A stretch of DNA of 64,000 bases, taken from NCBI GenBank assembly GCA_036674765.1, contig JARVKI010000039.1:310001-374000 (forward strand), written 5' to 3'. This document shows, one piece after another, positions 6,464 through 37,758 of this stretch. The position numbers and the translations under genes were made by a program. The notes below the pieces were generated by a model. The model made no database searches. It was not told where the DNA came from and was given only the letters and a program-made list of their open reading frames with translations. Position 1 is the first letter of the stretch. Every line of letters starts with the position of its first letter. This stretch comes from Seiridium cupressi. Its lineage: Eukaryota > Ascomycota > Sordariomycetes > Amphisphaeriales > Sporocadaceae.

Positions 6464-8933
6464 ATGTCGGATACCGCAGAGTCTAGCATCCACACCGATG
6501 GTGATCCATACAGGCAAAGCGTCTCTCCCGGCTCCTCGGCTCCACAACCATATCCGCAGAGCGCACAGGACTTGGTCAAGGTAACGCGCGGCACCTCCTG
6601 CGTCTTGTGCCAGCAGCGGAAGGTCCGCTGCGACAAGAACAAGCCGTGCTCCAATTGCGTCAAGGCTGGCGTCGAGTGCCGGGTCATACCTCCCCAGCCG
6701 CCAAGGCGGCGGAAGAAGCGCATCTCCGAGAGGGACCTGGTCGCCCGCCTGAGGAAGTATGAGGCTCTGCTGGTCCAGCACGGCGTCGAGTTCGAGAGCC
6801 TCGGTCCGGATATCAAGGTCACAGACCCGGGCACTGTCCACGAGGGCGACGAGCTGGACACGGATTTCAGGAGGGTCCGGGATTCCGTGGCTGGTTCGCT
6901 GAACCCAGAGTTGATATCATCACCCGGCGAGAATCCTCACATGCCCAAGTAGGTCCTGTCCTCGCTCTCATCTCTGATCCTGCGCTGACCGGCCTGATCG
7001 CAGGACATTCAAGTGGTTCCCATTTCAGAAGGAGGTTTGTCATTCCCAAGATCCTGTAGTATCGCGCATCTGATCGCGAGTTCTCTAGTTTCGGGCGCTG
7101 GAACAACCCCTTCAAGACTCATCCGATGAGGATGATGTAGGCTCCGGAATTAATCATGCATACGACAAGATGTTCGAAAACTCTGACGGCTTTCCGTTCC
7201 TCGTTGGAGGGGGGGCCGAGAGTGTCGCTGACCAGCACCCGCCTGCCCTGCACATTATCCAGCTGTGGCAGGTATACCTCAACAACGTGAACCCTCTGCT
7301 CAAATTGACCCACACGCCGACCTTACAGGAGCGCATCGTTGATGCTACAGCCAACATTGGCAAGGTCTCCAAAAGCTTGGAGGCACTGATGTTTGCTATT
7401 TACTTCATGGCCGTGACGTCTATGACCGACCAGGAAGTGCAGCTTACGTTTGAGGAAGACAAGGGGCAGTTACAGCAACGCTACTATACTGCATGTCAAC
7501 AAGCCTTGATCAATGGTGGGTTTATGCGGAATCCAGACTTGACCCTTCTGCAGGCATTTTTGTTGTATCTGGTGAGCTCCACGGTGGCCGAATGTTAACA
7601 ATAGTTCACTGACACATCCTAGATGGGAATACGGCATTACATGGACCCGCGTTCGCTCTTCTGTCTCATTGGGATTGCCGTCCGACTGGCTTATCGCATG
7701 GGCATACACCGAGACGGTGCCGACTTTCACCTCGCCCCTTTCGAAGTGGAAGAGAGACGGAGGCTGTGGTGGACACTGGTCAGCTTTGATCGACGGATCG
7801 GTGAAATGACCGGCTCAACGATAACAGCGATATCTAACGGGGGAGACTGTAGACTGCCTCTCAACATCAACGACGCCGATCTTCATCTTCACGCCAAAGA
7901 CCCGCCAAATCCACATGTCGGTGCTACTGAGATGGTGTTCGCGCTCACGAGGCTGGAATTTGCAAGAGCCCCAGGAAGCGACAAGATGAAATCTGTGCTG
8001 TCGGACGCTAGCCCGCAAGTGCCCAACGTCGCTGACCATCGGATGATCAACTATATTGAGCGCATGGTCACGCACCTGGAGGACACATACCTCAAACATT
8101 GTGACCCCAAAATCCCGCTCCAGTATTTCGCTCTCACCATGACGAGAGCGAGTGTCTGTAAACTCAGGGTGATTTCGGGGTTCTACAAGATTGCGACAAC
8201 GGCCCCTCAAGCCCTCAGCCTCGTGGAAAACGAGGCCCTTTTTATCGAATCTATCAAGATGATCGAGTACGACAGCATGATTCAGGCCAACGAAAGCCTC
8301 CGAGGGTTCCGCTGGTACACACTAATGCACTTTCCGTTCCCCGCGTACGTCGCTCTTGCCAAAGAGTTGCGTACTCGGACATCAGGAGAACTGTGCGAGC
8401 GAGCCTGGCAAGCAATGATCGAAAACCATGAGTGTAGGGGCATCACCAAGAAGATGCGAAGTCCCATGCATCTCGCTTTTACCCCCCTATTCCTCAAGGC
8501 ATGGGCTGCCCGCGAGGCCCACGAAGCCTCTCAGGGGAGAACTCTGGCGCCACCACAGATGATCATCGGGATGAGGCAACTGGCAGCCCGGCTAGGCTTG
8601 AAAGAGAACAGCAAGTCCCCGGAAGCCAGAACACCACTCATGACTCCCAGGAGTTTTTCCAGTCCGGAGGCCGAACTCAATCCCGAAACCCCAAATATGC
8701 AACCATATCAACCAACAAACACTGCGTGGACTAGCGCACCACCCATGGATCTGAATGGAGGCCAATATGCTGGTGCTTTTGCCGATGTTAATTTTGGTGG
8801 TGAAGTCGACTGGAATTTCCTCTTTCAACAATACAGCGGGATCCAGCCGATGCAACCGGCCCCACCGACTCAACCGCCACCACCACCCCAGATGCCTGTA
8901 CACCCAAATGGGGTTTACTCGGTCTGGCAATGA
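6464..8933 (+). CDS. Zn2Cys6 fungal transcription factor
   Basis: Model: join(6464..6948, 7004..7034, 7089..7571, 7623..8933), 769 aa. The three introns are GT-AG, 51-55 nt, and restore one frame through a 31-nt exon. The N-terminus has a Zn2Cys6 binuclear cluster at about residues 46-72 (CVLCQQRKVRC, then CSNC and VEC) followed by a basic PRRRKKR linker and a short coiled segment. The middle is a fungal-specific transcription factor domain (YRMGIHRDGADF, then EERRRLWWTLVSFDR). The C-terminus is Pro/Gln-rich (PPTQPPPPPQ) and could be an activation domain. It is presumably a nuclear sequence-specific regulator. Its targets are unknown and no biosynthetic genes flank it closely, so I assign no pathway. 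The first ATG after the long leader is used and begins MSDTAESSIHTDG. Confidence 0.92.
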
Positions 8934-32456: not shown

Positions 32457-33690
32457 TCAAGAGAATGGAGGCAAACCAGTCTTGGCCCGAAGTCTAGCAG
32501 CATTTTCGCGATATTTCTCGTCGTCCACCGAATCTCGTTGGGTCGCCCATTCTTTCAATGCACCATAGTCACGACAAGTATCTACATCAAACTAGGGTTA
32601 GCAATTGCTCTTACGGATAAAGTGTTTGTGAATACCAGGACGGGCGTTTTGAGTGTTTGACTCCCAAGATGTTGTATTCCCTCTCAACATAACTCCAAAG
32701 AGGTAAATTGTGACCCAGAAAGGTACTTACGTGTGGTCTCAAACTTTGGCATAATTCGATTGCCTTCATTAGACCACTCAACTGGTATAAGTGTTGTGTC
32801 TGCATCACACATCAACGTGAGTCTTAGACTGTCAAGGCAGTGATCTATTATTGTATGAGCATGGGTCTTCGAGCGTTTGCAGAGCCCTGGGGTCTGTCAT
32901 ACCGAGATGTGCTTCAAAGCCTTCCTTCTTCCGCATTTCTGGGTAGTAGTCTGGATACAATGCCTTGCGGAGCATATTCTACACTCACCCGTTAGCATAA
33001 CACCCCTTCAGAAATTCTTCACTGACTTACCAAACAATGGAGATCATGAAATGCCGTCACTCTGAGAAATCAGTAAGGTGAATGTGGAGTACTTATTGGA
33101 GCCGGACTCACATTGCCATGGGCATGCCAGTATCTTCGTCCAAATATATTTCACCATCCAAGGTCCTCGCCTCCTCGGGTGTGAGGAATATTTGTATCAC
33201 TGTCCGCTATATTAGCTTTTGGTTTGAGCTGGAGGGTCTGACCAATGGTCTTACCTCCAAGTATTCCGGCCCAAGCAGTATCGATTTCGGGACTGGGCTT
33301 CCCTACATATGAAGGCGTACTCTGTGGTCGAAATAGCTGGTGGCTCTCATTGTATTTGAGCTTTGCATCAAACCGAACTTGTTGGGTTGTCCTCGGAAAT
33401 CCGTTCCAGACAGAGCCTGCTCATTCTCAGTCGTTTCCTACATACTCTTAGGAAGAAAAGTACTTACTTGACTCGCTTTCTTTCCAGTAACACAATTCAT
33501 GAACATAAGGTCCATAACTCAGCCGTAGTATGGAAAGTGCTAGACTGACCGATAGGACTAGGACACAGATCCATGGAAACACACTCGCCCAGTGCAGTCG
33601 TCGGTGCTTCTTAATAGAAGCAGCATATTTTTCCTCGTGATCCTCAAAATCTCCAAGAAGCGCTTCTTTCGATTCATGCGTAGACTCCAT
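32457..33690 (-). CDS. UstYa-family (DUF3328) oxidase
   Basis: Model: complement(join(32457..32581, 32731..32844, 32903..32978, 33031..33061, 33112..33199, 33255..33416, 33468..33690)), 272 aa, seven exons, all GT-AG and in phase. The N-terminus is cytosolic, with a transmembrane segment (about 38-57, PWICVLVLSVSLALSIL). The conserved block YNESHQLFRPQSTPSYVGKP and then PEIDTAWAGILGG follow. The two signature motifs are HDLHC (163-167) and HLDHC (192-196), followed by LRLTLMC, and the CRDYGALKEWA tail is typical. UstYa/UstYb-type proteins carry out oxidative macrocyclisation, often at Tyr, in ustiloxin, asperipin-2a and phomopsin biosynthesis. All signature residues are intact, so the gene looks functional. 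It is divergently transcribed from the next HxxHC gene across 438 bp, which suggests joint control. Confidence 0.95.
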
Positions 33691-34128: not shown

Positions 34129-34833
34129 ATGCCATCCTTTTGGAAAGGGATGTACGATAAAGTCAAAGATGAGAAACACGATGCCGACACAGAAGACGAA
34201 CTGGCATCTTTGACAAGTGGCGATCACCATGGCAGACATCCACAATTCCTGGGCAGCAGGAGAGTCGTCGGCATCCTCGCATCCGCCCTGGGACTTGTCA
34301 TCATACTTTCTGCAGCCAATCTATGGTACAGCATCGGCCACTCGTACTCTGTCCCCAGAGCTCAGAAATATCAAGAACAGCATCAGAAGACCAAACCCCA
34401 AAGGGTCTGCGGCAACACAGCAGCAGAAGCACTCTCCCTTGGCTGCACACTGGACCAAATGACTTGGTCATGGCTCTCGCCCTCTTGTCCGCGGTATGCG
34501 AGCTCCGACTTCGAATCGGCGGAGACCGAACCCTTTAGATACTATGTCGACCCGCATAACGCAGTTCTGGCAGAAGGTAGTAACTGGACACTGGCGTTGG
34601 ACAACCAGGTGCGGCTGTACACCGAGCGCCGCGAGCATGTCACACATTGCATGTACACATTCCTCAGTCTGGCGCAGATAATCCGTGATGGAACGGAGAC
34701 GCACCCAAGGCTCAGCTCGTACGAGCACATTCACCATTGCGTCAAGGTCGTTTTAGAATCGGTGAGGAGGGATAAGGATTGGTTCACTATAGATGCCGAT
34801 ATGGGAGAAGTCTCATTCGACGAGGGTTGCTAA
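34129..34833 (+). CDS. UstYa-related protein with two HxxHC motifs
   Basis: A single exon of 234 aa from ATG 34129 (MPSFWKGMYDKV). The frame is open upstream to 34048 but only from a TTG. One transmembrane segment lies at about 46-68 (VVGILASALGLVIILSAANLW). The lumenal part starts VCGNTAAEALSLGCTLDQMTWSWLSPSC, a block I know from a fungal family distinct from classical DUF3328 but sharing its paired histidine motifs. Here these are HVTHC (170-174) and HIHHC (200-204), 30 residues apart. The two HxxHC motifs are the presumed metal ligands in UstYa enzymes. Its place between a canonical UstYa gene and a Kex2-repeat precursor suggests a second tailoring oxidase. NWT at 152-154 is a possible glycosylation site. 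Function is inferred from motif and context only. Confidence 0.8.
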   Translation: MPSFWKGMYDKVKDEKHDADTEDELASLTSGDHHGRHPQFLGSRRVVGILASALGLVIILSAANLWYSIGHSYSVPRAQKYQEQHQKTKPQRVCGNTAAEALSLGCTLDQMTWSWLSPSCPRYASSDFESAETEPFRYYVDPHNAVLAEGSNWTLALDNQVRLYTERREHVTHCMYTFLSLAQIIRDGTETHPRLSSYEHIHHCVKVVLESVRRDKDWFTIDADMGEVSFDEGC

Positions 34834-35552: not shown

Positions 35553-37109
35553 ATGCGTCTCTCTTACATGATCCTTGGTGCTTTAGCGACCGTGGCTCTC
35601 GCCGCTCCACACAACCTCAAGGGTCAGTCATCAAAGTCCCCCAACAATGATTCACCACCGCTAATTTCAATGATAGAGCGTGAGGCATTGGCTCAACCTG
35701 AGCCTGTGGCCACGGCCGACGCGGTTGCCAAGCGTTGCCCCGATCGAAATGGTAAGCACCTTTCAGATTTACTTTTGTGATTGTCTTTAGAGGGATCTCA
35801 ACCCTGTCTTTCTCATGTGTGAAAAATTCCTATCAACATCTGACTCTTCTCTAGGTACCGTAAGTCTGAGAATAAGTCATTCACTATCTTCTCGAGCAAC
35901 GCCCACGGAATGAAGCGCAGTATAGGACTGATGTGTTACTGAAAATCAGGAGTACGGAAAGCGTGACCGAAATGGAACTGTGAGTAACTGCAAGGATCTC
36001 TTTTTGTTATTCTGCCCCATCTACAGTATTCAATGATTTATACACTCCTGTACCACATCATGATATGGATCGCCCACTTTCTATATACAGTTCAGAGAAA
36101 GCTTTAGTCTTTGCATAGATATGCAGACGCTGATTTGTATTGATAATAGGAGTATGGCAAGAGAGGCCGCAATGGAACTGTAAGCTAGCCCCAAATACAC
36201 CAAACTCTCTTCCTCCACCTTGAGCAATTTTTCTCAATCTAGCTTTACCACTTCATCCCAACTACAAGAGGACAGTATAATCAAACATTATTTCCCCGCT
36301 GGAAGTTGTCTTTCGTTAGAGTTCAGTGAGAAACTAATTATCTTCCCAAAATTAGGAGTATAACAAGCGAGACCGAAACGGAACTGTGAGCCAGCCCCAA
36401 ATACTCTTGACTCTCCTCCTCCGCTTTCAGCAGTTTTTCTCAACGTGGCTTTCCACCTCGTCTTGTTTAGGAGAGGAAAGGATAGGCGAATATTGTTCTT
36501 ACCGCTGGAAGGTTTCCTTTTTTTGGGGGGTGAAGTGAAACACTAACACGTTTTCGAAATCTAGGAGTACGGCAAGCGAGATCGTAATGGAACTGTAAGC
36601 CCAGCCTTGACCAGCTTTGACTTATTGATATAAAGGATTTTTCTTATTGCTTTCGGTTTGGGCATGAATGTGGGATGTTAGAGCGGTTGATTGCCGCACA
36701 AGAAAAAAGAAAAAAAAATCTAACTTGGCTTGATTTCTAGGAATACGACAAGCGAGATCGAAATGGCACGGAATATGGCAAGCGAGACCGTAATGGCACG
36801 GTAAGTTCTGCAACTAAGTTATCTATCATTCCACTCTACCGCTTCAACAAACTTCAGCTCTGTCACAGTCTGTTCTGGACAGATGTGTGATGCGTCACGG
36901 CGATACGACCATCAACAAATTTCCTGGTTTTACGAGTGAACAGAAAAGCTGACTGGTATTGGTTGATCAGGAGTATGGAAAGCGAGATATGAACGGAACC
37001 GTAAGTCCCCTAAGAGATTGACTCGTATTTCTTCTTTTAATAGTCAGAGCTAAAATGTGTTCAATGCTAGGAATACAGCAAACGTGAGCCTGTCGAAGAG
37101 TCTGCTTAA
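35553..37109 (+). CDS. Kex2-processed repeat peptide precursor with micro-exons
   Basis: Model: join(35553..35622, 35677..35751, 35855..35859, 35950..35979, 36150..36179, 36356..36385, 36565..36594, 36741..36800, 36971..37000, 37071..37109), 132 aa. A signal peptide (MRLSYMILGALATVALA) and a spacer with EREALAQPEP lead to nine KR sites at exact ten-residue spacing after the first. Kexin cleavage would release one CPDRNGTEYG, four DRNGTEYG, and single GRNGTEYN, DRNGTEYD and DMNGTEYS, plus an acidic tail. Each repeat lies on its own 30-nt exon in phase 0, except one 60-nt exon carrying two, and introns split each core between Thr and Glu. A 5-nt exon (35855-35859) is needed to hold frame. Tyr-containing Kex2 repeats beside UstYa-family genes define dikaritin-like RiPP precursors, so this is the probable substrate of the cluster. 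The first intron (35623-35676) is 54 nt and in frame either way, so it may be retained. Confidence 0.88.
35855..35859 (+). other. 5-nt micro-exon in the precursor gene
   Basis: GTACC is bounded by CTAG before and GTAAGT after. With the G left by the previous exon it encodes Gly-Thr, completing the first DRNGT. Skipping it shifts the frame to a quick stop. No other in-phase splice was found. Confidence 0.7.
35950..37070 (+). repeat. Tandem exon-intron units of the precursor
   Basis: Six exons share a 30-nt cassette (GAG-TAY-x-AAG-CGN-GAY-CGN-AAY-GGA-ACT type) spaced 176-230 bp apart. The introns after 36179 and 36385 are themselves homologous (shared AGCCCCAAATAC, TTTTTCTCAA, CCGCTGGAAG), so whole exon-intron units were duplicated in tandem. 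The exon at 36741-36800 holds two cassettes with no intron between them and uses GGC-ACG rather than GGA-ACT. Confidence 0.85.
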
Positions 37110-37358: not shown

Positions 37359-37758
37359 CTATTTCCCAACTGAGATGATTTCGCAGATAGGACCTCGGTC
37401 GTCTCGATAGCAGCATTCGCCTGAGCCGGCGCCTTTCTGGCAAACGGTGTTATGACCCCAGCAACCGTAGCATCCCAGTCCTGATGAACATTGACCTTTG
37501 CCAGCTGTGTACGATTCACCGACGCCCCTTTTGCGTTTCTCTAGGGGTGACTGTGACAGATCGTTAATGACATTTCCAAGCGGCAATATCTAGCCGTCGC
37601 AATGATGCAAAGTTTAGTGGCGCGCTTACAATACTGTCACCAGTCCACTGAGCAGATAGGGATTCACGAGCCAGGAGGTTTGTGGGCTCGGGTGCAGGTG
37701 CGGCTGATATGCTGGAGGCTACCGCAAATAGGCAGAAAAGAGTCTGGGTGGGTTTCAT
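37359..37758 (-). CDS. Small secreted cysteine-rich peptide with Kex2 site
   Basis: Model: complement(join(37359..37550, 37630..37758)), 106 aa, with one 79-nt intron (GTAAGC donor, CTGTCACAG acceptor). It has a signal peptide (MKPTQTLFCLFAVASSISA) and a pro-region, then KRKR at residues 48-51, predicting a mature peptide of 55 aa starting GVGESYTAG. Seven cysteines (64, 70, 73, 80, 89, 90, 99) sit in a Gly-rich frame with a CC pair. The odd number leaves one free or paired between chains. It converges with the repeat precursor, 250 bp from its 3' end, so the two may share a kexin-dependent secretory route. It resembles small secreted effectors or antimicrobial peptides in form, but I do not recognise a family and assign no activity. 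Confidence 0.82.

Follow-up and report, generated by a model that had tools for sequence, protein, structure and literature searches.

The window analysed here, a stretch of 64,000 nucleotides of the Seiridium cupressi genome, carries a gene that we regard as probably encoding the precursor of a dikaritin-type (UstYa-associated) ribosomal peptide, constitutively spliced and with its repeats laid out as exon-intron cassettes (Table 1). The first-pass annotation had proposed a Kex2-type repeat precursor at this place, and the 132-residue frame obtained by joining the ten modelled exons bears this out, with nine KR sites and eight NGTEY cores, most of them of eight residues (DRNGTEYG and variants). 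The precursor follows the layout MRLSYMILGALATVALAAPHNLKEREALAQPEPVATADAVAKR-CPDRNGT-(EYxKRDxNGT)7-EYSKREPVEESA and starts with the hydrophobic segment MRLSYMILGALATVALAAP, judged by eye to be a signal peptide. As a secreted-type protein with KEX2-flanked repeats, its secretion and Kex2 cleavage being predicted, it fits the definition of KEX2-processed repeat proteins (KEPs). Cleavage after KR would release, before trimming of the KR, the cores CPDRNGTEYG, DRNGTEYG, GRNGTEYN, DRNGTEYG, DRNGTEYD, DRNGTEYG, DRNGTEYG and DMNGTEYS. A repeat search found seven cassette copies; across the whole genome (45.4 Mb in 228 contigs) the cassette pattern gave six forward matches, 6 of 6 inside the precursor gene, no match on the reverse and none with the reversed pattern used as a control.

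Table 1. Features of the precursor locus (positions in the window) and of the other Kex2 precursor genes recognised in the genome (positions in the scanned stretches, with the contig).
Feature	Position	Strand	Description
UstYa-family gene	32457..33690	-	7 exons, 272 aa, HDLHC and HLDHC motifs
HxxHC membrane-protein gene	34129..34833	+	Single exon; HVTHC and HIHHC motifs and one apparent membrane helix in 234 aa
Precursor gene (model)	35553-37109	+	10 exons, 132-aa open frame after joining
Exon 1	35553..35622	+	Start codon and apparent signal peptide MRLSYMILGALATVALAAP
Exon 2	35677..35751	+	Pro-region EALAQPEPVATADAVAKR with X-Ala/X-Pro pairs, then CPDRNG; matches P0001
Exon 3	35855..35859	+	GTACC, a micro-exon of 5 nt that restores the frame and supplies the end of NGT
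Exon 4	35950..35979	+	EYGKRDRNGT, 30 nt, phase 0
Exon 5	36150..36179	+	EYGKRGRNGT, 30 nt, phase 0
Exon 6	36356..36385	+	EYNKRDRNGT, 30 nt, phase 0
Exon 7	36565..36594	+	EYGKRDRNGT, 30 nt, phase 0
Exon 8	36741..36800	+	EYDKRDRNGT EYGKRDRNGT, 60-nt doublet without intron
Exon 9	36971..37000	+	EYGKRDMNGT, 30 nt, phase 0
Exon 10	37071..37109	+	EYSKREPVEESA and stop; matches P0001 and P0002
Duplicated exon-intron unit	36180..36564	+	Introns 5 and 6 with exon 6; repeat search and intron alignment
L018, split Kex2-repeat gene	7452-8459 (C34, about 160651-161658)	+	GRGKNAGAKRDIEGEEHLEARHHK type; about 2.3 kb from UstYa match
L020, Kex2 precursor	6619-6987 (C19)	+	First three repeats share an exon; a phase-0 intron (KRDE|YADLAKD) precedes the fourth
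L016, Kex2 precursor	6809-7040 (C111)	+	AIPFYP cores; intron before the array only
L022, Kex2 precursor	about 2313-1877 (C41)	-	LYWASTLLTD cores; single exon

In the joined model the exons measure 70, 75, 5, 30, 30, 30, 30, 60, 30 and 39 nt. They are separated by introns of 54 and 103 nt (introns 1 and 2) and of 90, 170, 176, 179, 146, 170 and 70 nt (introns 3 to 9), the median of the latter seven being 170 nt against 50-58 nt for five of the six introns of the neighbouring UstYa gene (149 nt for the sixth). From intron 3 on, all introns are in phase 0 and interrupt the core at one fixed point, between Thr and Glu, which suggests that the array lengthens and shortens by whole cassettes, exon together with intron, and not by coding repeats on their own. 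This refines the earlier description, in which each repeat lay on its own symmetric phase-0 exon of 30 nt and every core was cut at Thr|Glu by introns of 70-179 nt: five of the seven full units have an exon of their own, the other two sharing exon 8 with no intron between them, and the 5-nt exon 3, absent from that description, is not symmetric. The range of lengths and the cutting point are correct for introns 3 to 9, introns 1 and 2 having gone unmentioned. All splice sites from intron 2 onward are of canonical type. Intron 1, a multiple of three free of stop codons, could be retained in frame; any of introns 2 to 9, if kept, would introduce one or more stop codons.

The first NGT unit is split, exon 2 stopping at AATG and GTACC supplying the remainder, as the 5-nt exon would do in the spliced transcript. 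When exon 2 is joined computationally straight to exon 4, the protein ends with CPDRNGVRKA and a stop ahead of the repeats; the micro-exon therefore appears to be needed, since skipping it truncates the product before the array. By arithmetic made after the fact and assuming equal base frequencies, the chance of meeting there, between AG and GTRAG, a 5-base exon with the sense required is about 1 in 10,000 trials.

A protein search with the precursor identified two proteins among 10 candidates, P0001 (SUNI508_00522, S. unicorne) and P0002 (SCUP515_03849, S. cupressi), both of them automated gene models. In P0001, the segment EGFQPCLSH corresponds to translated intron 2 of the window (8 of 9 residues) and KLQLCHSLFWTD to translated intron 8 (36801..36970, + strand; 12 of 12 residues). 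In P0002, which reads exon 2 in a different frame, RDLNPVFLLCEKFLSTSDSSLGT corresponds to intron 2 read into GTACC (22 of 23 residues) and ends exactly at the donor of exon 3. These translated pieces indicate that the intron DNA is conserved and that the automated models go astray there. Ahead of the doublet exon the window gene has four cassettes, P0002 three and P0001 two, the latter counts being those of predicted proteins and not of DNA. Such smaller numbers and the phase-0 exons of 30 nt agree with the initial proposal that units can be lost or gained without a change of frame, a proposal that does not extend to the 5-nt exon, whose skipping would truncate the product ahead of the array.

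It seems distinctly improbable that GTACC is not a real exon and that another small exon lies between exons 2 and 4, for which the model of S. unicorne offers an example of 26 nt. This model reads VPDRN-EGFQPCLSH-EYGKR, the window has an open frame over the corresponding stretch, and the 5-nt exon is absent from both public protein models. The 26-nt route would however drop the NGT that recurs in all seven full units and, on the window sequence, would need a GTGTGA donor, whereas GTACC is served by a branch-like CTGAC at -15, a TAG acceptor and a GTAAGT donor. Moreover, the two public models contradict each other precisely where the 5-nt exon is required, and a second gene of the same genome, presented below, likewise requires a 5-nt exon.

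Among the seven units, 15 of the 30 columns are variable, and third codon positions account for nine of these (p 0.003 by the hypergeometric test). E, Y, the KR pair, N, G and T, seven of the ten residues, are invariant, with silent changes in all but K. A silent or decaying gene, with micro-exons as a neutral by-product of intron gain, would be compatible with the finding of the gene in two species only among public proteins, but it is hard to reconcile with this silent-site bias, the frame open across ten exons, the intact splice sites and the conservation in three genomes, and we consider it highly improbable. Homology is clear between introns 5 and 6, which agree at 118 of 165 aligned positions (z 13.7), and this implies that an exon and an intron were copied as a unit at least once. 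The other pairs among the 21 pairs of introns 3 to 9 were not clear, introns 4 and 8 reaching z 3.1 and introns 6 and 8 z 2.5, neither of them above z 3.5 in a second test. Cassette duplication is seen once, in introns 5 and 6, and is presumed for the other cassettes.

The UstYa-family gene, assigned by Pfam to PF11807 (DUF3328) with 151.9 bits, lies 1.9 kb from the precursor gene, and the HxxHC gene sits between the two. The same three genes bear consecutive tags in S. unicorne: SUNI508_00522 for the precursor, 00523 for the HxxHC protein (96% identical) and 00524 for the UstYa protein (94%). The search for relatives of the HxxHC protein gave 16 proteins, from other ascomycetes and from metagenomes (14 proteins in the alignment). 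The protein itself has no Pfam family and no UstYa match up to E 10, and its profile aligned with that of UstYa at an hhalign probability of 3%, over 19 columns around one HxxHC. That it could be a UstYa is thus not borne out by Pfam or hhalign, the HxxHC motifs being the only common trait; its relative P0023 is labelled DUF3328 by its source. Three of the five other matches to this protein in the genome lie 1.8-2.1 kb from a UstYa match, and the family is perhaps an undescribed partner of UstYa clusters. With the UstYa profile, no solved structure was matched.

The dikaritin-type reading rests on the adjoining UstYa and HxxHC genes and on the location of HxxHC paralogues near UstYa matches. 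The proximity of a UstYa gene gives weak support by itself, since the 42 UstYa matches of the genome merge into 30 loci. In favour of the reading, the regions no more than 10 kb from such a match make up 1.4% of the genome. The 30 loci represent a large potential for UstYa-type peptides in a single fungus. In the mechanism we propose, Kex2 would cleave after KR, a carboxypeptidase would trim the KR and a UstYa-type enzyme would modify the Tyr-bearing cores.

The precursor could also give a secreted Kex2 signalling peptide, pheromone-like or glycosylated at NGT, with no need of a UstYa enzyme. Ascomycete alpha-pheromone precursors have a core of the WC...CW type, a pattern absent from the cores described here. 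An alpha-pheromone precursor was rejected on composition, as the window precursor has no Trp and a single Cys, located in the first core. The pheromone core ends with PCW (PMC6339444, in part), and the genome-wide search for the pheromone pattern gave 0 matches and is therefore silent on the location of the true pheromone gene. The signalling reading draws on the X-Ala/X-Pro pro-region, which resembles Ste13 sites (PMC6339444, in part), on eight NGT sequons in the precursor and on the fact that a UstYa neighbour may occur by chance in a genome with so many of these loci. We nevertheless deem it unlikely, given the lack of the pheromone pattern and the three-gene neighbourhood kept in S. unicorne.

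In the dikaritin-type reading, the nine introns would be removed constitutively by intron definition, including both that flank the 5-nt exon. Regulated splicing would instead adjust how many peptides are made, and which, through the choice of cassettes, as the first-pass annotation had suggested, or let the 5-nt exon switch the array on and off. The phase-0 cassettes, five of 30 nt and a doublet of 60 nt, can be skipped in frame, the skipping of GTACC ends the protein before the repeats, and Xlr2 of Trichoderma has a 20-nt micro-exon under the control of glucose (PMC11121469, in part). Nonetheless, intron retention makes up 61% of alternative-splicing events in 23 informative fungi and skipped exons 3% (PMC3925392, in part), which leaves exon skipping with a low prior; the canonical-type splice sites and the folding of introns 1 to 9, without signal (z -0.4 to 1.4), do not point to regulation either, and the cores differ so little that mixing them would bring little variety. 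Regulation of this kind is therefore quite unlikely in our view, and constitutive splicing by intron definition is favoured over regulated skipping. The 5-nt exon would be the better candidate for a switch, because its omission removes all repeats. Structured introns were rejected, as RNA folding of 13 introns of both split genes of this genome gave no signal (z -0.5 to 1.7).

The search for other Kex2 precursors covered 24 UstYa loci in 25 stretches of 6-10 kb, in addition to that of the window, hence 25 of the 30 loci. Scanning for repeated dibasic contexts gave six sets in the 25 stretches, four of which were accepted as Kex2 precursors, and 0 sets in 104 shuffled stretches; as a positive control, 7 of the 7 full units of the window were recovered. 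A low-complexity CVRR run (L030) and an Arg/Glu-rich run (L037) were dropped, as was one weak set at L041, a neighbour of the closest HxxHC paralogue. Five Kex2-repeat genes are accordingly recognised beside UstYa matches (25 loci): two arrays have no intron, one has a single intron and two are split, including that of the window. The contrast drawn by the first-pass annotation with precursors of continuous coding sequence thus applies in part. L020 possibly represents an intermediate architecture.

The second split gene, L018, is modelled with 157 aa and exons of 233, 72, 64, 5 and 100 nt, and three of its four introns fall at an identical point of the repeat (CAC CAC AA|G). Its 5-nt exon, CACAA (8187-8191), is required for the frame. 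Its sequence is unrelated to that of the window gene, and the comparison of the introns of the two genes gave nothing above z 3.5. CACAA and its donor lie in a 21-nt segment similar to the last part of exon 1, 507 away, and a 76-nt exon repeat has a spacing of 508; these matching spacings suggest that CACAA may be the edge of a duplicated block. Compared as wholes, the L018 introns showed no likeness above z 3.5.

Both 5-nt exons (window 35855-35859; L018 8187-8191) sit just upstream of a donor, in unrelated genes. The presence of exons of exactly 5 nt in two such genes may be a coincidence or may reflect a common way of gaining introns. A broader generalisation, which we hold to be rather unlikely, would see here a recurrent fungal split-repeat architecture made of exon-intron cassettes, in which a 5-nt exon keeps the frame and decides on the production of the array and cassette splicing tunes the dose, which arose at least twice in one genome and went unnoticed because gene finders are unable to model it.

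Schistosome micro-exon genes encode a secreted protein by means of several short exons in multiples of three. The window gene, whose product is predicted to be secreted, shares these two traits with them and differs in that its exons are copies of one peptide cassette; it does not qualify as a gene with most of its coding sequence in short symmetric exons, the five 30-nt exons amounting to 150 of 399 nt. To our knowledge, the core DRNGTEYG is unlike the known dikaritin cores. The precursors of dikaritins (ustiloxin, phomopsin and asperipin; Cin3 of Venturia) have a signal peptide (apparent in that of the window), KR-separated repeats and an adjoining UstYa/DUF3328 gene (PMC9632046, in part; PMC12048977, in part), as here, and the window gene departs from them in that exons of 30 nt and one of 5 nt divide its repeats. 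KEPs likewise have KR-separated repeats behind a signal peptide, and the main text of two KEP surveys (PMC6339444, PMC7329392) is free of the terms “intron”, “exon” and “splic-”, so that the surveys do not take up split arrays. The gene structures described for mycorrhizal repeat effectors are of another kind (PMC8786786, in part; PMC11333574, in part).

Trichoderma Xlr2 also has a tiny, frame-essential exon missed by gene models, but this exon has 20 nt, belongs to a transcription factor and has its regulation seen in RNA, whereas that of the window has 5 nt, belongs to a peptide precursor and is modelled from DNA; according to a 2024 paper, no functional micro-exon had been described in filamentous fungi before that of 20 nt (PMC11121469, in part). 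Introns 2 and 3 recall the stwintrons of Xylariales, a related order, in that two introns are tightly packed (PMC12403724, in part). They were rejected as a stwintron, as the [D1,2] arrangement fails, 5 coding nt lie in between and removal of the whole stretch breaks the frame. No description of split Kex2 arrays was found in the literature searched, in which subscription papers are thinly covered. Kex2-repeat precursors beside UstYa genes being already known, the new part, to the extent of these searches, is their partition among exons of 30 nt and 5 nt.

The mining of RiPPs and KEPs relies on repeats in predicted proteins. If repeats are split into 30-nt exons and an obligatory 5-nt exon, these proteins are mispredicted, which is the case in both Seiridium species, or may be absent altogether, and counts of fungal peptides may fall short; such a build of peptide genes may have been overlooked because ordinary gene finders mis-model the gene. 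Exon-intron cassettes would also constitute a second route for repeat expansion, and the locus offers a compact natural experiment on the recognition of a 5-nt exon under intron definition.

The patterns matched 8 stretches in prokaryote genomes and 112 in viral contigs, and none was a relative, as expected for a fungal gene. Just downstream of the precursor gene and convergent with it, the window encodes at 37359-37758 (- strand) a small secreted Cys-rich protein (MKPTQTLFCLFAVASSISA...), with one intron and KRKR before the Cys-rich part.
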